This document shows positions 762 through 10,564 of a stretch of DNA of 64,000 nt, in pieces. Position numbers and translations under genes: made by a program. Origin of the DNA: Flectobacillus major DSM 103 (GTDB lineage: Bacteria > Bacteroidota > Bacteroidia > Cytophagales > Spirosomataceae); NCBI RefSeq assembly GCF_000427405.1, contig NZ_KE386491.1, forward strand, positions 355,001 to 419,000, given 5' to 3'. The notes beneath the pieces were generated by a model. It made no database searches and had not been told where the DNA came from. It worked only from the letters and a program-made list of their open reading frames with translations. Position 1 is the first letter of the stretch. Every line of letters begins with the position of its first letter.

Positions 762-1766
762 TTAGTAATATTTGCAGGCATTGCTGAGTCGCTTAGAAAT
801 AGTTCGGCGGAGTCTGATTGGTGATAATACTTCTACGCCATCACCAAAGCCTAAAATTTCTTTCTCTAGCTCAAAATTGATTTGTAATGCTAATTCAATG
901 GTGAGTCCTCTTTCATTTTCCTCGATAACTTTTTGTGAATGATGTAAAGGTTTCGTAATTACATAAGGGGCATGCAAAGGGGTAAACTTTAATACTATTT
1001 GTTGTGGACGAAGATTATTTACAGTAACTCCAATGGTATTTTTATAGTATTCTTCTTGAACAATGATATCATTTGGTAGGTAAGTAATGTCTTCAGAGAC
1101 GTGAACTTCTTGTATTCTGTCCAAAGCAAGGTGTAAAATTCCTTCTTGTTCCTTCCTTTTTCCTACTAGAAACCAACGGTTTTTAAATTCTTTTAACCAC
1201 CATCCGTGAAATACAAAAACTCCCTCTTGCCGTGCTTTGAATGATTTGTAAGTTATGATAAGTGCTTTTTTAGCTAAAATGGCATGATAAAGATAGTCTA
1301 AATAGGAAAGTCCCTTCAAATTCTCATTTTTTTCAAAATCAATAATAGAACTTCGTTTTTCTTGTGCACTGTAAACGTGTTCTTCTAGCTTATTGACTAC
1401 CTCGCTCAATTGATCAAAATGTGAAAAACCTTTGAATTGCTTTAATAATGATAACGCCTCATTCATTTGAATAAGGTCTGTTTGGGTAATTGGTGATTTT
1501 GTAATGCTAAAATTAGGGTCAGCATAGGTATAATATTTTTTATCAACAACGATTATCGGTGCTTCATATCCTAATTTGTCACTGCGCATGACTTGAATAT
1601 CTGCTTGAATGGTACGCAAGCTGATTCCTTTATCTATTCCTTCATACTCATAGAGTGCATCAGATACCTTTTCTATTAAATCATCTAAAGTCCATTTTCG
1701 CTGACGATTCTGTAAACAAGCATCGATTGTTTTGTAGCGAATGAGAGCATTTCTATTGGTTGGCAT
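762..1766 (-). CDS. WYL-domain transcriptional regulator next to Ro/RtcB
   Basis: A 334-residue protein when started at the ATG at 1766. A longer frame to 1862 would add a non-conserved, Tyr/Phe-rich leader and would start inside the palindrome at 1828-1854, so it was rejected. The N-terminal part reads as a helix-turn-helix region (TLDDLIEKVSDAL ... ISLRTIQADIQVMR). The middle and C-terminal part matches the WYL/YafY type, with the HGWWLKEFKNRWFLVGKRKE stretch. WYL proteins are transcription factors whose ligand, where known, can be nucleic acid. It is divergent from the Ro gene, 130 bp between start codons, so it probably controls the Ro-Y RNA-rtcB unit; that is inference. It takes the place held by RtcR in enterobacterial rtc loci. 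Confidence 0.85.
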   Translation of the reverse strand: MPTNRNALIRYKTIDACLQNRQRKWTLDDLIEKVSDALYEYEGIDKGISLRTIQADIQVMRSDKLGYEAPIIVVDKKYYTYADPNFSITKSPITQTDLIQMNEALSLLKQFKGFSHFDQLSEVVNKLEEHVYSAQEKRSSIIDFEKNENLKGLSYLDYLYHAILAKKALIITYKSFKARQEGVFVFHGWWLKEFKNRWFLVGKRKEQEGILHLALDRIQEVHVSEDITYLPNDIIVQEEYYKNTIGVTVNNLRPQQIVLKFTPLHAPYVITKPLHHSQKVIEENERGLTIELALQINFELEKEILGFGDGVEVLSPIRLRRTISKRLSNACKYY

Positions 1767-1827
1767 ATTTAAAGCACACTTTTTATAAGTTTTTGAAATA
1801 TTTTTTACAAAAAAGTAAAAATAAATA

Positions 1828-1854
1828 CATCTACGCAAAAAGACTGCGTAGATG
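1828..1854. promoter_or_regulatory. Perfect inverted repeat, probable operator between the WYL and Ro genes
   Basis: CATCTACGCA (1828-1837), a 7-nt spacer, TGCGTAGATG (1845-1854): a perfect 10-bp inverted repeat in the 130-bp divergent intergenic region. It has no T run, so it is unlikely to be a terminator. A weak -7-like box (CAAATTTG, 1860-1867) follows for the Ro gene, so the repeat would cover or adjoin its -33 region. The best candidate binder is the WYL protein (inference). Confidence 0.6.
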
Positions 1855-1895
1855 CACTGCAAATTTGTATTAGAAATTTAAAACAACCTAATGTC

Positions 1896-3416
1896 ATGAA
1901 ATTCAATTTCTTAAAGAAGACCAATACTATTCTCAAAAATTATGAAGGAGCACCTTCTTATAAGTTGAGTCCAGAAATGGAATTATATAGTGCTACGGTG
2001 ACAAGCCTGCTTCATGACAGTTTCTATGAAAAAGCAGAAGAAAGATTAATACGCCTACAGCAATTGATTGAAAAAGTGTCACCAGAATATTGTGCTAAAC
2101 TGGCAGTGTATGCTCGCCGTTCTATGAATTTGCGTTCTGTGCCAATTGTGCTTTCGGTAGAGTTAGCCAAAAAAGCGGATGCAGGAGCTTGGGTTGGAAA
2201 AGCTATTGAGCAAATAGTTTTGCGACCAGATGAGATCACTGAGACTCTGGCTTATTATCAGCAAACCAACAAAAGGACAGGAACAAAGCGACTCAATCGA
2301 CTTTCAAAACAGATTCAAAAAGGTTTGGCAAAAGCATTTAATCGTTTTGATGAATACCAGTTTGCCAAGTATAATCAAAATACGGAGGTAAAATTAAGAG
2401 ATGCCTTGTTTTTGGTACATCCGAAACCTAAGGACTTAGCTCAACAAGTCGTTTTTGATAAAATTACTCAAAATACCTTGTCTACGCCATATACTTGGGA
2501 GACAGAACTTTCTGCACTTGGACAGCTTCATTTTGGAAGTGAAAAGGCAAAAAATAAAGCCTTCAGAGCTAAATGGGAAGAGCTGATTCTGAGCAAGAAA
2601 GTAGGGTATATGGCCTTGCTGAGAAATCTTAGAAATATGCTGGAATGTAATATCTCAGATGAATGTTTGGATATGGTTTTATCTTATTTATCTGAAGAAA
2701 ATGCCGTCAGAACTGCCAAACAGCTACCTTTTCGATATTGGTCTGCCTATCGAGAATTGAGTAATATAACCGATGGTAGAGTGACTAGGGTTATTGATGC
2801 TTTAGAAAAAGCGATGCTATTAAGCGCTCAAAACATCAAGGGTTTTGATAACGATACCAAAGTTGTTTTGGCTTGTGATGTGTCAGGCTCGATGCAACAA
2901 AGATTATCTGCAAAAAGTAGTCTGATGTATTATGATATAGGTTTGCTATTGGCGATGCTCTTGCAAAGCCGTTGTAAAAATGTAGTTACGGGGATGTTTG
3001 GAGATGCTTGGAAAGTGATACAAATGCCTAGTAAAAGTATTTTATCGAATGTAGCAGCATTTCATCGACGTGAAGGAGAGGTGGGATATTCAACAAATGC
3101 ACATTTGGTGATTGAAGATTTGTTAAAGCGTGAATATCAAGCTGATAAAGTGATGATTTTTACGGATACGCAGTTATGGAATAGCCAAAATAGAGATGCG
3201 AACAGCATTAAAACGGCTTGGCAAAACTATAAAAGGAAATTTCCGAAAGCAACATTATATCTTTTTGATTTAGCTGGTTATGGTCAAAGTCCCATGAGAG
3301 TAGAATCAGGAGATGTGTATTTGTTGGCGGGCTGGTCAGATAAAATTTTTGAAGTACTCGATGCCCTAGAAAATGGACAAGGTATTGTAGATTTTATTCA
3401 AGGAATAGATTTGTAA
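1896..3416 (+). CDS. rsr: Ro60-like TROVE-domain RNA-binding protein
   Basis: A 506-residue bacterial Ro protein, close to the usual length. Residues about 20-310 form the helical TROVE ring, with the family signature GYMALLRNLRNML near 237-249. Residues about 322-495 form a von Willebrand A-like domain with the metal-site motif DVSGSM (328-333) and FTDTQ near 422. Ro proteins bind Y RNAs on the outer ring surface and misfolded RNA in the central hole; in Deinococcus, Ro with its Y RNA steers structured RNA to PNPase. Three Y-RNA-like RNAs and rtcB follow on the same strand, probably as one transcript. The ATG at 1896 is the first start before the conserved N-terminus. Confidence 0.95.
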   Translation: MKFNFLKKTNTILKNYEGAPSYKLSPEMELYSATVTSLLHDSFYEKAEERLIRLQQLIEKVSPEYCAKLAVYARRSMNLRSVPIVLSVELAKKADAGAWVGKAIEQIVLRPDEITETLAYYQQTNKRTGTKRLNRLSKQIQKGLAKAFNRFDEYQFAKYNQNTEVKLRDALFLVHPKPKDLAQQVVFDKITQNTLSTPYTWETELSALGQLHFGSEKAKNKAFRAKWEELILSKKVGYMALLRNLRNMLECNISDECLDMVLSYLSEENAVRTAKQLPFRYWSAYRELSNITDGRVTRVIDALEKAMLLSAQNIKGFDNDTKVVLACDVSGSMQQRLSAKSSLMYYDIGLLLAMLLQSRCKNVVTGMFGDAWKVIQMPSKSILSNVAAFHRREGEVGYSTNAHLVIEDLLKREYQADKVMIFTDTQLWNSQNRDANSIKTAWQNYKRKFPKATLYLFDLAGYGQSPMRVESGDVYLLAGWSDKIFEVLDALENGQGIVDFIQGIDL

Positions 3417-3466
3417 AGTACCTATGTGTTAAGTTCTAAGCATAAGGCTATCATATTGAAGATTTT

Positions 3467-3600
3467 GTAAAATGCCGTAAGGTTAAGATACTTCGCAGCC
3501 AATATAGGGGAGGAATGGCGTGATTGAGTAATACAATGAGGTCATCTGGTTCGACTCCAGCAATGCAATGCCCCGTTCTCGACCTGCCTATTGCTTTTAC
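3467..3600 (+). ncRNA. Y-RNA-like RNA 1 with a tRNA-like module in normal order
   Basis: Outer stem GTAAAA (3467-3472) with TTTTAC (3595-3600). Then TGCCGTA opposite GCCTATTGC, and an inner stem AGGTTAAGA (3480-3488) with TCTCGACCT (3577-3585; one mismatch, one G-T), followed by TACTTCG (3489-3495). The head holds a tRNA mimic: GGGG (3507-3510) with CCCC (3571-3574), a D-like arm ATTG-AGTAATA-CAAT (3523-3537), only 8 nt, then a T arm CTGG-TTCGACT-CCAG (3546-3560). There is no anticodon arm. Order and architecture are seen in the sequence; the Y-RNA name follows from the Ro gene directly upstream and the shared stem of three copies. Confidence 0.75.
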
Positions 3601-3689
3601 AAAAAAACCAGAGTGCCGTAAAAGAGCGATACTTCGAATGTAATCGACTCCTTTTATCATCGCTCTTTGCTCATTGCCTCTGGTTTTTT
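3601..3689 (+). ncRNA. Y-RNA-like RNA 2, minimal form
   Basis: Outer stem AAAAAACCAGAG (3602-3613) with CTCTGGTTTTTT (3678-3689), 12 bp. Then TGCCGTA (3614-3620) opposite GCTCATTGC (3669-3677), and a perfect 9-bp inner stem AAAGAGCGA (3621-3629) with TCGCTCTTT (3660-3668), followed by TACTTCG (3630-3636). The head loop is only about 30 nt and has no tRNA fold, but TCGACTCC (3644-3651) repeats the T-loop strand of copy 1 (3551-3558), as if a tRNA-like module had been lost. The closing T run could also end transcription. Confidence 0.75.
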
Positions 3690-3693
3690 AAGA

Positions 3694-3824
3694 TTTTAAA
3701 GAGTGTCGTAAAAAAGCGTTACTTCGGCTGATTGGGTCGTAGGTTCGATTCCTACCTGTCTTGTACAGTAGCTCAGCGGTAGAGCAAATTATTAATGTCG
3801 CTTTTTGCATGTTACCTCTTTATT
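3694..3824 (+). ncRNA. yrlA: Y-RNA-like RNA 3 with a circularly permuted tRNA-like module
   Basis: Outer stem AAAGAG (3698-3703) with CTCTTT (3816-3821). Then TGTCGTA opposite GCATGTTAC, and inner stem AAAAAGCG (3711-3718) with CGCTTTTT (3799-3806), then TACTTCG (3720-3726). The head reads T arm GTAGG-TTCGATT-CCTAC (3739-3755), a capped mini acceptor hairpin CTGT-CTTGT-ACAG (3756-3768), TA, and a canonical D arm GCTC-AGCGGTA-GAGC (3771-3785). That is a tRNA in permuted order, as described for bacterial YrlA RNAs. It lies 53 nt before rtcB. Confidence 0.8.
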
Positions 3825-3876
3825 TCCCTTTAAATAGTTCTACATCTTTTAAAACAATTATACAAATTCTAAAAAA

Positions 3877-5406
3877 ATGGAAACAGTAATCATTACCCAA
3901 GAAGACTTACAACAATTGGGTGTACATCATGAAGAAGCCTACCCAAAATTCTTGAGGGTAGCCAATGGTTTGTTAAATAATGGGGTTTATCCCAAGTCTC
4001 ATATATTGTTATTGTTTGCTCAAATGATAGATTCGCCAAAGAAGTTTAGTTTTTCCAAAAACAAATTGACCAATTTGGCGCTCTATACCAAACATTTGAA
4101 AGAGATAGGTCAAGAGCTTGTTTTATCAGAATATGGACAATCCTTGTTGGAGGCAGAAAAAAACAAACCTAAATATGAATTACCTAAAACGGGTCGTCAG
4201 TCAGAAAACTATTTTGACTTAAGAGAAGAAACATTATCCTACCGAATTTACGGAGGAAATTACATAGAGCAAGGCGCCTTGGACCAAATGCAAACAGCGA
4301 TGAAATTGCCTATTTCGGTAGCTGGAGCACTGATGCCCGACGCCCATCAAGGATATGGATTACCTATTGGCGGGGTTTTGGCAACGACAGCAAATACCGT
4401 GATTCCGTATGCTGTAGGCGTGGATATAGCCTGCCGTATGTGTATGAGCGTATTTGATTTACCTGTGTCGATGATTCAACGAGAAGATAAATTGTTGAAA
4501 AAAATGCTTGAAAACCATAGCTTCTTTGGGATGGGTTCAGAGTCGAAGCAGAAATATGATGATACACTTTTTGACCGCTCGGAATGGACTGCAACAAAGT
4601 TAATTCGAGACTTAAAAGATAAAGCTTATCGACAATTAGGAACCTCAGGAACGGGTAATCATTTTGTTGAATGGGGTGTTTTAGAGGTTTTAGAGCAAGA
4701 CGAATTAATGGATTTGCCCGTAGGAAAATACCTTACTTTGTTGTCACATTCGGGGTCAAGAGGATTTGGTGGTGCTATTGCCAATCACTATTCAAGAATA
4801 GCTATGGAAAAAACTAGGCTTCCTAAGGAGGCGAAACATTTGGCATGGCTAGATATGAATAGCGAAGAAGGGCAAGAATATTGGTTATCTATGAATTTAG
4901 CAGGAGACTATGCCTCAGCCAATCACCATGAGATTCATCATAAAATTGCTGCTGCCCTGAACCAAACGCCATTAAAGCGAATCGAGAATCACCATAATTT
5001 TGCGTGGGAAGAGCGTCTTGCTGATGGAACTCCAGTAATTGTGCATCGAAAAGGAGCCACGCCCGCTGGTAGCCAAGATTTAGGGATTATTCCTGCCTCG
5101 ATGACTCAGCCTGGCTATGTGATTCGAGGGAAAGGTACACCAGAGGGATTAAATTCTGCTTCGCATGGCGCAGGTCGTAAAATGTCTCGTACCAAAGCTT
5201 TAGGAACGATTACTAAAGATGATTTGAAAGAAGCTTTATCAAAAGCTCAGGTTCAATTGATTGGGGCCGATCTTGATGAAGCACCACAAGCCTACAAAAA
5301 TATTGCTAAAGTAATGGCTGCCCAAGAAGAGCTTGTTACCGTTTTAGCCCAATTTTCGCCTAAAATCGTACGTATGGCCGATGGTAAAGAAAAGGCTGAA
5401 GATTAG
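3877..5406 (+). CDS. rtcB: RNA-splicing ligase RtcB
   Basis: A 509-residue RtcB that joins 2',3'-cyclic phosphate (or 3'-phosphate) and 5'-OH RNA ends using GTP and Mn2+. The metal-site residues are present: Asp183 and Cys186 in GVDIACRM, His262 in GNHF, His291 in HSGSRG, and His372 or His373 in NHHNF. The His that takes GMP is His430 in SASHGAGR. It is longer than E. coli RtcB and starts with about 100 extra residues. It follows the Ro gene and the three Y-RNA-like elements on the same strand, so it is probably co-expressed for RNA repair. No RtcA cyclase or archease gene is seen nearby. Confidence 0.95.
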   Translation: METVIITQEDLQQLGVHHEEAYPKFLRVANGLLNNGVYPKSHILLLFAQMIDSPKKFSFSKNKLTNLALYTKHLKEIGQELVLSEYGQSLLEAEKNKPKYELPKTGRQSENYFDLREETLSYRIYGGNYIEQGALDQMQTAMKLPISVAGALMPDAHQGYGLPIGGVLATTANTVIPYAVGVDIACRMCMSVFDLPVSMIQREDKLLKKMLENHSFFGMGSESKQKYDDTLFDRSEWTATKLIRDLKDKAYRQLGTSGTGNHFVEWGVLEVLEQDELMDLPVGKYLTLLSHSGSRGFGGAIANHYSRIAMEKTRLPKEAKHLAWLDMNSEEGQEYWLSMNLAGDYASANHHEIHHKIAAALNQTPLKRIENHHNFAWEERLADGTPVIVHRKGATPAGSQDLGIIPASMTQPGYVIRGKGTPEGLNSASHGAGRKMSRTKALGTITKDDLKEALSKAQVQLIGADLDEAPQAYKNIAKVMAAQEELVTVLAQFSPKIVRMADGKEKAED

Positions 5407-5420
5407 ACATTTTATAAGAA

Positions 5421-5710
5421 ACATGAGTCGTCCCTAATTTGGTGAATTGTGATTGAGCGAATGAGTGATTATTGTTGAACATGATTTTCTCCAGTAGATT
5501 TGCATCTAAAGATGAGTTATTCAGACATTGAACATGAAAGCGAGTTATTACGCCTTTTTGATTAATAGTCAATAAAAGCCTACCATTTGTGTGCTTTTTT
5601 CCAAATAGAGTGTAACTCAAGTCGCACCCTATTTGGAAAAAAGCACGATGGTTTACCTCGTGAATCCCAACGAACACCAATAGGAGGTTAAAATTCGAGA
5701 TGACTCATGT
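5421..5710. mobile_element. MITE-like repeat, copy 1
   Basis: Bounded by imperfect terminal inverted repeats: ACATGAGTC (5421-5429) and GACTCATGT (5702-5710), similarity running on for about 19 bp. It shares its ends, TTTTTGATTAATAG and the core CACGATGGTTTACCTCGTG with the copy at 37396-37556. It holds an 18-bp perfect stem, 5591-5608 with 5629-5646 and a 20-nt loop, that copy 2 lacks. No transposase gene is present. It starts 15 bp after the rtcB stop. Confidence 0.65.
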
Positions 5711-5726
5711 TGCTTAGGCAAAATTC

Positions 5727-7913
5727 TTAACTACGAGTTTGCTTTATCCTATTATATTCCTTTTGTAAAGGCATTCGATTCAATCGTATACCTGTTAATT
5801 TGGCTGCAGCATTGGCAATGGCCGCACCAATTGGCCCAATAGGAGGCTCGCCTACGCCACGAGGAGTATCGCCCGTAGAAACAATTTCTATGATTATTTC
5901 TGGTGCATCTTTTAATTGAGCCATCTGATAAGAAAGGTACTGATTAGGCATCACCTTACTATTTTCTATTTGTATTTCCTCGTACATACTTGCACTAAGC
6001 CCCATCATGATAGCCCCTTCGCACTGAGCTTTTATACCATCTGGATTAATCACTAAACCTGCATCGAGGGCACAGTATACCTTTACTACTTTTATTTGCT
6101 CATTTTCAAGCTTTATTTCTACTACCTGAGCTACAGGAGTATTTACGTCTGTAGAACAGGCTATTCCCAAAGCATGGCCTTGGGGTAAGAGTGGATTTTT
6201 CCATTCCGCCATTTTTTCTACGGCTTTTAGTACCCCTTTGAGTCTTGTGCCTCGTTCATCGTCGGCAATATGGGCTATTCTAAAGGCTATTGGGTCGATA
6301 TGACTCTTGAAGGCTAGCTCATCGATAAAAGATTCTATGGCAAATGAATTAGCCAATAAACCTAAGCCTCGCCACCAACTTGTGGCAAAAGGTAATTGAC
6401 ATCGCCAAGAGACTGTTTGAAAATTAGGAATTCTTTCATACTGAAGCATACCACCACGCCATGCCCCAAAATCCGCGCCCAAGATAGGAGCTGCAAAGCT
6501 TGGCACAAGCGACGACCCAAATGCTACATCGCCACTAGATGTATTATGCTCTAAAGCTATAATTCTGCCATTTTGTAGCTTGGCTTTTAAAACATGATGG
6601 GTTGGTGGTCGTAAATAGCTATTTTGAAACTCTTCTTCTCGCTCAAACAATACCTGAACGGGTTGTTCAACAGCTCTGGAGAGTATCACTGCTTCGGCCG
6701 CATGCGGTGTATACAGCCTTCGGCCAAACCCTCCACCCAAAAAAGTAGGCTGTATGTCAATATCTTCTTCGGCAATCCCTGTAGCTTTGGCCACCTCGCT
6801 GCGGGTCAATAAAACAGACTGTGTACTCATTTTGAGCGTCACTTTACCATCCTGATACAATGCTGTAGCTCCATTGGGTTCCATCTGAGCATGAGCTCCC
6901 ATTGGAGAGTGATATTCGGCAGTATAAATATCGGTATCTTGCCAAAATGATTCTGTATCGCCCGAAGACTGAATAAGCGTTGGCGTTCCTTTTCCAACCT
7001 GAACTGTGGCTAGAATATCCTGCTGTTGTACGGGCTTTTCGGGTTGTGTCCATGTTACTTTCAGTTTTTGTTTGGCTTCCAAAGCTTGATACCGTGATAA
7101 GGCTACTATTCCGACAAAGTTTTTTTCTACGAATACTTTCTTTACGCCTGTTGATTGTTCTGCCAATGTGGTATCTATTGACACAATCGTTACGTCAAAT
7201 TGTGGTGGCCGTAAAACAGTAGCAAAAAGCATATTCGGAAAAGAAGCATCAATACCAAAAATAGGTTCAGCCTTTATTTTGGCTATTAAGTCGACTCTAG
7301 GCAAGGCTTTTCCGATAATTTTAAAATCTGTATTTTTCTTTAAAACAGGTTCTGTGTCGGGTATTATCCACGTTGGAGTCTGGGCAACAATTTCGCCGTA
7401 GGTTAGCTTTTTTGTTTGATAGCTCACAATACTATTTTGGGTTATCAAGCTGTCGGGCGATACATTCCATATCTTAGCAGCTTGTAATTTTATCATTTCC
7501 CGCATATTGGCTGCCAAGGTACGTAAAGCCATATACATACTCGAAACCGAGTCGCTACCACCTGTAGTATTAGGGTCGTTTGGGCCACGTTTTGTAGTAC
7601 TATGCACCACTTGTATGTGCTGAATGTCGGCATCAAGCTCTTCTGCTACAATTTGAGCCAAAGCCATAAAAATTCCTTGTCCCATTTCTACTTTGGGCGA
7701 ATAAATGGTGAGTTGATTATTGGCCAAAATTTCGAACCATAAAGTAGGTTCGTCGTTGGTGCTAAAAGTTCTTAATACGCCTTTATCGGCCTGTTCTGCA
7801 AACTTACGTCTTACAAAGCTTTTGCCAATGATACCAAGCCCCAAAGCTAATCCAATACCTATTCCTGATTTAACAAGAAAGTTTCGTCTCGAAAATGTCC
7901 ATTGAGTAGCCAT
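5727..7913 (-). CDS. iorB: Molybdopterin-binding subunit of an IorB-type aldehyde/isoquinoline oxidoreductase
   Basis: A 728-residue large subunit of the xanthine oxidase family, of the membrane- or periplasm-facing isoquinoline 1-oxidoreductase type. The N-terminus has a twin-arginine signal (SRRNFLVKSG) and a hydrophobic stretch, so it is probably exported folded by Tat. Cofactor motifs include TTGGSDSV near 115, GGGFGRRL near 395 and, near the C-terminus, GVGEPPIGPIGAA with the expected catalytic Glu. It lies 3 bp downstream of the 2Fe-2S subunit gene. The substrate is unknown; aldehydes or N-heterocycles are possible. No cytochrome c subunit is seen alongside. Confidence 0.88.
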   Translation of the reverse strand: MATQWTFSRRNFLVKSGIGIGLALGLGIIGKSFVRRKFAEQADKGVLRTFSTNDEPTLWFEILANNQLTIYSPKVEMGQGIFMALAQIVAEELDADIQHIQVVHSTTKRGPNDPNTTGGSDSVSSMYMALRTLAANMREMIKLQAAKIWNVSPDSLITQNSIVSYQTKKLTYGEIVAQTPTWIIPDTEPVLKKNTDFKIIGKALPRVDLIAKIKAEPIFGIDASFPNMLFATVLRPPQFDVTIVSIDTTLAEQSTGVKKVFVEKNFVGIVALSRYQALEAKQKLKVTWTQPEKPVQQQDILATVQVGKGTPTLIQSSGDTESFWQDTDIYTAEYHSPMGAHAQMEPNGATALYQDGKVTLKMSTQSVLLTRSEVAKATGIAEEDIDIQPTFLGGGFGRRLYTPHAAEAVILSRAVEQPVQVLFEREEEFQNSYLRPPTHHVLKAKLQNGRIIALEHNTSSGDVAFGSSLVPSFAAPILGADFGAWRGGMLQYERIPNFQTVSWRCQLPFATSWWRGLGLLANSFAIESFIDELAFKSHIDPIAFRIAHIADDERGTRLKGVLKAVEKMAEWKNPLLPQGHALGIACSTDVNTPVAQVVEIKLENEQIKVVKVYCALDAGLVINPDGIKAQCEGAIMMGLSASMYEEIQIENSKVMPNQYLSYQMAQLKDAPEIIIEIVSTGDTPRGVGEPPIGPIGAAIANAAAKLTGIRLNRMPLQKEYNRIKQTRS

Positions 7914-7916
7914 ATT

Positions 7917-8384
7917 TCAGTCTTTTTTATGAGCTATTTCTGCTGCTCTATGAATGGCCTTTCTTATTCTATAATATGTTCCACATCTACAAATATTAGT
8001 AATATATTCATCTATTTGTTGATTGGTTGGCTTAGGGTATTCCTGCAATAACTTTACGGTAGCCATCATAAATCCAGGTTGACAATAACCACATTGAGGT
8101 ACAATTTCTTCGAGCCATGCCTGTTGAACAGGATGAAGTTGCTCGGCCTCGCCAATACCTTCGATAGTTGTTATTTGCTTGTTTTGAACCAAATTGGCAG
8201 GATACGAGCATGAACGTACAGCTTCATTGTTGACAAGAACGGTACATGATCCACAAAGACCTTTCCCACAACCATATTTTGTACCTTTCAAATTCAGTAT
8301 ATCACGAATTATCCATAACAAAGGCATGCCTTCGGGAACTTCAATAGCTTGTTTTTTACGATTTAATTCAAACGTTAATTTCAT
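7917..8384 (-). CDS. iorA: 2Fe-2S subunit of the IorAB-type oxidoreductase
   Basis: A 155-residue protein with two iron-sulfur sites: the plant-ferredoxin type CGCGKGLCGSC...C near residues 38-58, and the helical C-terminal type CGYCQPGF ... CRCGTY near 98-136. It passes electrons from the molybdenum subunit encoded 3 bp downstream. Length and motif order are standard for IorA/CoxS-type subunits. A TACTTTTG box on the minus strand (8505-8512) could serve as its -7 element. Confidence 0.93.
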   Translation of the reverse strand: MKLTFELNRKKQAIEVPEGMPLLWIIRDILNLKGTKYGCGKGLCGSCTVLVNNEAVRSCSYPANLVQNKQITTIEGIGEAEQLHPVQQAWLEEIVPQCGYCQPGFMMATVKLLQEYPKPTNQQIDEYITNICRCGTYYRIRKAIHRAAEIAHKKD

Positions 8385-10392: not shown

Positions 10393-10470
10393 GGTTTCAT
10401 AGCTCAGCTGGTTCAGAGCACCTGCCTTACAAGCAGGGGGTCCTAGGTTCGAATCCTAGTGGGACCACCA
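10393..10470 (+). tRNA. tRNA-Val (anticodon TAC), copy 1
   Basis: Acceptor GGTTTCA pairs with TGGGACC. The anticodon loop CTTACAA gives TAC, reading GTA. The T arm is CTAGG-TTCGAAT-CCTAG and CCA is encoded. 78 nt. Confidence 0.97.
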
Positions 10471-10486
10471 ATTTTATTGACACAAT

Positions 10487-10564
10487 GGTTTCATAGCTCA
10501 GCTGGTTCAGAGCACCTGCCTTACAAGCAGGGGGTCCTAGGTTCGAATCCTAGTGGGACCACCA
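10487..10564 (+). tRNA. tRNA-Val (anticodon TAC), copy 2
   Basis: Identical to copy 1, 16 nt downstream of it. Both share the promoter at 10324 and the hairpin after 10564. Confidence 0.97.

Follow-up and report, generated by a model that had tools for sequence, protein, structure and literature searches.

A locus encoding a WYL-domain regulator, a Ro protein, three Y RNAs and the RNA ligase RtcB was analyzed in a 64,000-nucleotide stretch of the genome of Flectobacillus major DSM 103 (contig NZ_KE386491.1, positions 355,001 to 419,000; hereafter the window). We consider it, with a probability of roughly 0.73, to be an inducible locus for RNA quality control and repair, in which a WYL activator would act at a palindrome, Ro and Y RNAs would steer RNA decay, and RtcB would rejoin RNA ends. 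Two features set the locus apart within the known Ro/Y-RNA/RtcB repair theme: its WYL regulator, which comes with a conserved palindrome, and a class of Y RNA, predicted to be pseudoknotted, for which no significant Rfam match was obtained. A first-pass annotation of the window had described a WYL gene divergent from a Ro gene, three structured RNAs in tandem and rtcB on the same strand. This anatomy is right, as borne out by Pfam and by a covariance model termed R1, and the mechanism proposed there, in which Ro would sort damaged RNA and RtcB would reseal it, is plausible. The locus comprises the following features:

762..1766, minus strand: WYL-domain transcription regulator of 334 amino acids, with a winged helix at the N-terminus, a WYL and a WCX domain (Pfam, 27-sequence alignment, AlphaFold2, Foldseek)
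1828..1854, no strand: candidate palindromic operator CATCTACGCA-N7-TGCGTAGATG, the predicted WYL site, with the core TRCGCA-N7-TGCGYA at 1832-1850
1860..1867, plus strand: TTTG box, CAAATTTG in the window, taken as a degenerate -7 box and ending 17 nt past the operator core
1896..3416, plus strand: Ro, a Ro60/Rsr-like TROVE-vWA protein of 506 amino acids (Pfam TROVE and vWA_Ro60; PDB TROVE chains)
3464..3605, plus strand: Y RNA 1, class A, with Ro-type bulged stem, GGGGAGGAAU...CCCC insert (about 3507-3574), T-arm-like hairpin and predicted pseudoknot (alignment A1, pair counts, pseudoknot test, R1 134.9 bits)
3605..3688, plus strand: Y RNA 2, minimal, with Ro-type stem and no clear effector domain (inverted repeat, fold z -5.43, R1 53.0 bits)
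3695..3826, plus strand: Y RNA 3, a YrlA-like permuted tRNA mimic, with a T-arm at 3739-3755 followed by a D-arm at 3768-3785 (Rfam YrlA 40.6 bits, R1 45.3 bits)
3877..5406, plus strand: RtcB RNA ligase of 509 amino acids, extended at the N-terminus by roughly 125 amino acids (Pfam RtcB 280 bits; PDB alignment)

The palindrome, which has 10-bp arms and lies between the WYL and Ro genes, first surfaced in a terminator scan. Its core pattern TRCGCA-N7-TGCGYA has a single exact match in the 6.22-Mb genome, and the reversed-pattern control has none. The bare pattern occurs at least once in 149 of 291 genomes of the order, which represents background (reversed control mostly 0-1); hence, it is the position of the palindrome that matters. 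Ro loci were collected from relatives, 40 in genomes of the order and 80 in named genomes, the latter being the best of 440 such relatives. These 120 loci together with the window, minus three duplicates, gave 118 distinct loci; the sample tilts to close relatives and contains many Chryseobacterium. In 88 of the 118 loci (window counted), a palindrome was found no more than 400 bp upstream of the Ro gene. When it lay within 160 bp (80 loci), a TTTG ended 17 or 18 nt past its core in 79, the exception being locus L058. Several Flavobacterium-type loci carry extra copies of the palindrome just after Ro, before the Y array, and before rtcB (e.g. L112, L119, L142).

The WYL gene is divergent from and adjacent to Ro in 47 of the 118 loci, 41 of them with the palindrome; 47 more loci have the palindrome and no adjacent WYL gene. 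Among Ro loci without adjacent WYL gene, 17 of 19 searchable genomes possess an ortholog elsewhere (46-62% identity), and all 14 of those genomes with a palindrome near Ro own a WYL ortholog. Only WYL matches of 31-33% were detected for L061 and L065, which have no palindrome. Over the 291 genomes of the order, 39 contain both Ro and WYL, 34 Ro only, 35 WYL only and 183 neither (Fisher P = 1.8e-9, uncorrected for kinship; five genomes whose best WYL match is 36-40% identical were counted as WYL-negative). Palindrome, WYL and RtcB are found all together in 21 of the 118 loci.

The open reading frame of the regulator spans 762-1862 on the minus strand; the conserved start is the ATG at 1766, and the protein begins with MPTNRN (alignment A2). 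The Pfam domains WYL and WCX both scored above cut-off, which places the protein among the winged-helix/WYL/WCX regulators. Its N-terminus is highly conserved among the 27 aligned sequences and was modeled by AlphaFold2 as helix-helix-helix-strand-strand (predicted local distance difference test 79, predicted template modeling score, pTM, 0.53). A Foldseek search with this model returned DriD (E = 7.6e-14) and PafBC as best matches; CapW and BrxR were weaker. We infer from the model that the protein belongs to the DriD/PafBC activator type. DriD, PafBC and SiwR share its layout of winged helix, WYL and WCX, and the operator candidate is located just upstream of the start region; unlike these regulators, the protein analyzed here has RNA-repair genes as neighbors and the palindrome TRCGCA-N7-TGCGYA. 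DriD and PafBC are activators with affinity for ssDNA. According to PMC10693628, SiwR and PafBC operate at the -26 region; in a jumbo-phage paper (PMC7824862), WYL domains are connected with cyclic nucleotides, and TROVE with a tRNA-like partner.

The gap of 460 nt between Ro and rtcB houses all three Y RNAs. Each is flagged by one copy of a 27-nt repeat (positions 3469, 3610 and 3700), and they have the 5' stretch UG(C/U)CGUAA...UACUUCG in common. Model R1 was trained on element 1 and its relatives, with elements 2 and 3 excluded, and nevertheless detected all three in the source genome, at 3464-3605, 3605-3688 and 3695-3826. No fourth match was obtained at E ≤ 1 in this genome when 150 of 1520 first-look candidates were scored; a run of R1 restricted to the 64-kb window listed elements 1 and 3 and missed element 2. 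Element 2 contains a perfect 12-bp inverted repeat (3602-3613/3678-3689) and folds better than shuffled sequences (z -5.43). Elements 1 (z +0.56) and 3 (z -1.05) folded alone no better than shuffles; both therefore rest on comparative evidence. The helix carrying the bulged site (alignment columns 2-14/152-162) is 91.7% paired, with two-sided changes in 9 of 11 pairs, and we take the bulged site to be the Ro-binding site. Position beside Ro and a long end-to-end stem with a conserved bulged site are the marks of a bacterial Y RNA, and both were found. Furthermore, the Y-RNA 5' motif occurs in the 118 loci 483 times on the Ro strand versus four times on the opposite strand. At least two Y units are present within 5 kb downstream of Ro in 102 loci (median 4, maximum 9); ten loci have none in this range, and three have none within 5 kb on either side in the stretch examined.

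None of the three RNAs was matched by Rfam at gathering threshold. In a permissive Rfam scan, element 3 matched YrlA with 40.6 bits (E = 1.7e-7), under the gathering score of 69; no YrlA match was obtained for elements 1 and 2, and the 15 bits of element 1 against the Deinococcus Y RNA (E = 9) are at chance level. YrlA is described as a circularly permuted tRNA mimic (PDB 6CU1) in PMC11472068 and PMC8394870. Y RNA 3 alone has the T-arm-then-D-arm order of YrlA (RF02553), together with a closing stem as in YrlA; it is YrlA-like and, by its score under the gathering threshold, not assigned to YrlA proper. In contrast to YrlA, Y RNA 1 has a T-arm, no D-arm and the putatively pseudoknotted GGGGAGGAAU domain, and Y RNA 2 has neither arm; in an Arcicella locus (L080) the middle Y unit retains a T-arm. 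As judged by motif, class A (GGGGAGGAAU...T-arm...CCCC) is present in 40 of the 118 loci and units with T-arm plus D-arm or D-arm only in 89, besides T-arm-only and minimal units; these counts are approximate, as the regular expression sometimes fuses neighbors (L083, L123) or picks distant chance sites (L091).

The structure of class A was analyzed with alignment A1, which consists of the window sequence and 38 distinct inserts; L058, L066 and L035 are poorly aligned in the hairpin and were included in every count. In the proposed structure 95.1% of the cells are paired, as compared to 43-57% with partners slid by 1-3 columns. Two-sided changes were found in 27 of 36 pairs, and 0 of 500 shuffles matched any of five measures. 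Within A1, such changes occur in each of the two stems (the Ro-type stem and the second one), in the T-arm and in either part of the central hairpin; GGGG/CCCC has none. Class A, with its T-arm, GGGGAGGA and predicted pseudoknot, is a class supported by covariation. In the crossing helix, the bases past UACUUCG pair with the segment ahead of GCCCC (CGUC/GACG, CGUUA/UAACG, CGCU/AGCG). It scored at least 2.5 in 37 of the 39 sequences, L035 and L073 being the misses; the 33 distinct segment pairs reached a mean of 3.21 versus 2.27 with swapped partners, and 0 of 2000 shuffles reached this value. The score allows a variable register, and the covariation and swap controls leave kinship in. Class A would form a pseudoknot if GGGG pairs with CCCC. 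R1 matches outside the training set, inspected by eye, bear on this: in L199 the two strands read CGGG and CCCG and are thus changed on both sides; L198, L204 and L205 retain the GGGG/CCCC helix by means of a G-U pair.

Across the phylum, R1 matched 21 of 395 genomes at E ≤ 0.01, with eight candidates scored per genome and stricter filters. The best match lies within about 1.5 kb of Ro in 17 of these 21 genomes, L199, L208, L212 and L214 being the others. Among the 14 best matches (L194-L207), the GGGGAGGA core is present in L194-L198 and L200-L205, with variants in L199, L206 and L207; matches weaker than these 14 are probably other Y RNAs. No Rfam 15 family significantly matches any class A element scanned. 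Class A is probably undercounted: L074 carries it at 136.1 bits and was overlooked by the regular expression, and a later expression missed L198-L205, class A by eye. L200-L205 stem from genomes listed in the same phylum and outside the class; their class A Y RNAs have a shorter hairpin, and Ro and a distant relative of RtcB (26-31% identity) are their neighbors. Class A may represent a second, non-YrlA route to tRNA mimicry, in which the GGA past GGGGA may dock into the T-loop and replace the D-loop. No prior description of the palindrome or of class A was found in the open-licence literature, the letters of the palindrome not having been a search query. The T-arm class with its predicted pseudoknot offers a new subject for structural studies and a candidate for an Rfam family, and Y-RNA arrays with defined classes in one locus permit each effector domain to be removed separately.

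Ro scored above the Pfam cut-offs for TROVE (89.8 bits) and vWA_Ro60 (29 bits) and thus belongs to the TROVE-vWA proteins; residues 11-501 align with the solved PDB TROVE chains 9l5y/9kop (E = 9e-28). With the NCBIfam Rsr equivalog NF041674 it reached 32.1 bits against a curated cut-off of 900, and it is a divergent Ro outside this equivalog. No NCBIfam model was above cut-off for the WYL, Ro or RtcB protein. RtcB (PF01139, above cut-off) is the sole RtcB found in the genome. Its alignment with solved RtcB begins at residue 135 and retains the segments GVDIAC (GxDxxC), GNHF, SHSGSRG and SHGAGR (HGAGR), which presumably are the catalytic Cys/His segments. Roughly 125 N-terminal residues (window 3877-4250) are outside the match to solved RtcB structures. 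Genome-wide, neither RtcA (PF01137) nor RtcR (PF06956) was matched, with both controls positive in E. coli; this extends to the whole genome the earlier observation, made for the window, of a WYL protein in the place of RtcR and no RtcA. RtcB can seal cyclic- or 3'-phosphate ends without RtcA, so the missing RtcA is no obstacle. RlaP was sought in the source genome and not found; PNPase, known to partner Ro and Y RNA, is encoded elsewhere in it.

Additionally, the regulator and its palindrome were examined away from Ro. Twenty of the 35 Ro-less genomes with a WYL ortholog were sampled; 40 WYL stretches were analyzed overall, 39 of them without Ro. Relative to the WYL start, the palindrome falls between -40 and +320 bp in 26 of the 40 stretches, among them 18 of the 20 from the Ro-less genomes. 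Thirteen of these 20 genomes encode an RtcB relative on the divergent side, no farther than about 5.1 kb away; two of these relatives are only 27-34% identical. Pfam was run on ten chosen genes near WYL orthologs. In Ro-less genomes these encode SPFH/Band_7 (L154, L155, L160), RlaP (L162), Hen1_L plus Pnkp ligase (L165) and RtcB (L167); in genomes with Ro elsewhere, RtcB (L184) and RlaP (L190) were assigned, as was, in a single case, an unrelated sigma-54 response regulator (L192). Genome G287 has the WYL gene and its palindrome opposite RtcB (L174), with Ro at a separate palindrome-bearing locus (L035). WYL and palindrome stand beside Hen1-Pnkp in L165 (by Pfam) and L166 (a protein of like size), with no Ro in either genome; the regulator is thus not confined to RtcB loci.

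A T-arm motif, GGTTCRANTCC, was observed between the palindrome and the next gene in all eight stretches inspected, out of 11 such loci (L154, L155, L156, L158, L160, L161, L164, L172). These stretches are long and non-coding and extend 0-600 nt beside the WYL start; the next gene encodes SPFH in L154, L155 and L160. Judged from the motif, they may give rise to a tRNA-like RNA that belongs to the regulon. An ordinary tRNA was rejected, as ARAGORN was empty in 10 of 11 loci; a tRNA-Gln match was obtained in L172. Burroughs and Aravind reportedly described in 2016 RNA-repair systems that combine a ligase, a scaffold (TROVE or SPFH), a tRNA-like RNA and a nucleotidyltransferase, with SPFH/Band-7 accompanied by tRNA-like RNA, TROVE by Y RNAs, both linked to RtcB and possibly to WYL. 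Found in the present analysis were class A Y RNAs and a palindrome, with fixed spacing, that Ro and SPFH versions have in common. The chances appear even that a WYL regulon for RNA damage stands in for RtcR in many Bacteroidota, with one operator switching interchangeable kits, including Ro plus a Y array with the new pseudoknotted class, or SPFH plus a long T-arm RNA, each with RtcB or another ligase.

In the mechanism we propose for the locus, the WYL protein would bind the palindrome and sense a ligand arising from nucleic-acid damage. Bound to this ligand, it would aid RNA polymerase at a weak promoter, which has a TTTG box without the usual TA and no -33 TTTG, and Ro, Y RNAs and RtcB would thereby be produced together. 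Ro would load the Y RNAs via their stems. Their tRNA-like parts (permuted T- and D-arms in Y RNA 3; T-arm and pseudoknot in Y RNA 1) might tether a partner, for instance PNPase, or vie with tRNA for enzymes, thereby directing structured or broken RNA toward decay. RtcB would rejoin 5'-OH ends with ends that carry a 2',3'-cyclic phosphate or a 3'-phosphate, such as those of tRNA halves, without need for RtcA. As in the RtcR-driven Salmonella rsr-yrlBA-rtcBA operon, Ro, the Y RNAs and RtcB share one strand, and a divergent regulator may sense nucleic-acid damage; here, however, WYL replaces the sigma-54/CARF protein RtcR, RtcA and RtcR are missing from the genome-wide matches, and one of the three Y RNAs belongs to a class that lacks a significant Rfam match. 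The locus bears on what induces Ro/Y-RNA/RtcB loci lacking RtcR and on the roles of non-YrlA bacterial Y RNAs. The Salmonella operon responds to tRNA fragments according to PMC7790460, and the complex of Ro, YrlA and PNPase is named RYPER in PMC8394870. The conserved palindrome with its fixed spacing constitutes a directly testable switch.

Several observations weigh against this reading. No palindrome is present within 400 bp of Ro in 30 of the 118 loci, and a close WYL ortholog is missing from 34 of the 73 genomes of the order that have Ro, 26 of these 34 in genus g23; WYL control of Ro loci is thus common and not universal. L039, L046 and L050 have a close WYL ortholog and no palindrome near Ro. 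RtcB is encoded within 5 kb after Ro in only 28 of the 118 loci. The TA of the known -7 consensus TAnnTTTG is missing in 78 of 79 loci and present in one, so the TTTG box is at best a degenerate -7 box, and its assignment as such is a guess by position. The WYL model with its pTM of 0.53 has a TM-score to DriD of only about 0.47 (the root-mean-square deviation is large for the whole chain, and single domains fit better than their arrangement), and the repressors BrxR and CapW match it too, more weakly. In genus g23 of family f12 (e.g. L053, L057, L062), Ro and Y arrays have RtcB nearby, no palindrome in the stretch examined and no close WYL; in these genomes another regulator may have replaced WYL.

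It is rather unlikely that the WYL protein is a repressor of the BrxR/CapW style which, sitting on the palindrome, would block both divergent promoters until released by a ligand, with the remainder of the mechanism unchanged. Autorepression would be easy, as the distance between palindrome and WYL start is 66 bp and the TTTG box of Ro follows shortly after the palindrome, and CapW and BrxR are among the structural matches. However, the best of these matches are the activators DriD and PafBC, and the promoter appears weak and in need of help: measured from TTTG at 17-18 nt, the -33 element is TTTG in 0 of 79 loci and TTG in two, and TA is present in one of 79 at the -7 box. A poor -7 box, no -33 TTTG and a palindrome at fixed upstream distance would fit an activator of the DriD/PafBC type. 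For the known elements, -7 TAnnTTTG and -33 TTTG, PMC7366714 (johnsoniae) is cited. A generic promoter scan gave six promoters versus 7.1 expected in shuffles, no better than chance.

The function of RtcB and of the Y RNAs can be viewed differently as well. It is possible, although doubtful, that the locus serves decay only, with Ro/Y RNA and PNPase degrading RNA and RtcB a co-regulated, mechanistically separate passenger. That RtcB follows Ro within 5 kb in no more than 28 of the 118 loci, and the separate palindrome-bearing loci of G287, point in this direction; yet RtcB recurs by the palindrome both with Ro (the 21 loci that also have WYL) and apart from it, suggesting a common signal. To call the locus a self-contained stress module, as in the first-pass annotation, is too strong: Ro, Y RNAs and RtcB do lie on one strand behind one palindrome, but PNPase is encoded elsewhere, and in many relatives RtcB or WYL is located away from Ro (RtcB is adjacent in 28 and WYL in 47 of the 118 loci). 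Improbable in our view is a defense module in which the Y RNAs are mainly decoys, their T- and D-arm mimics absorbing tRNA-cutting toxins or phage factors and RtcB mending the damage. Y RNAs 1 and 3 would have the tRNA mimicry for it, WYL regulators are common in defense loci according to PMC10693628, and inhibition of an anticodon nuclease by YrlA is named as a possibility by the authors in a passage of PMC7790460. However, PADLOC gave no match for Ro or RtcB and matched the regulator with two WYL models and one Cas3c model, none of them a known single system, and Y RNA 2 of the window lacks a clear tRNA-like part. Finally, the end of a 23S rRNA gene and a 5S rRNA occupy positions 1-651 at the start of the window, and Ro acts in 23S maturation in Deinococcus according to a title cited in PMC7790460. 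A locus read through from the rRNA operon and serving rRNA decay or maturation is nevertheless very improbable: the WYL gene opposes the rRNA direction and lies between rRNA and Ro, and rRNA was found beside the locus in one of ten relatives scanned, a Flectobacillus (L073), the sequences of L074 and L075 stopping near the WYL gene and being uninformative on this point. The locus thus follows the rRNA genes as first noted, and the link drawn from it is not supported; the adjacency is probably coincidental.

The closest named relatives of the locus are from Flectobacillus, L073 (Ro 96% identity) and L074 (90%), followed by L075, labeled Cellulophaga sp. (88%). In L103, labeled Tannerella, the region 3828-7512 has extra Ro-like pieces (62% and 54% identical) preceding a full Ro gene, with the look of a tandem duplication. 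Past rtcB, a xanthine-dehydrogenase-like pair of molybdopterin- and 2Fe-2S-domain proteins is encoded on the minus strand (window 5727-8384). Further downstream, at 10393-10564, there is a tandem pair of tRNA-Val (TAC) genes with equal scores, 16 nt apart.

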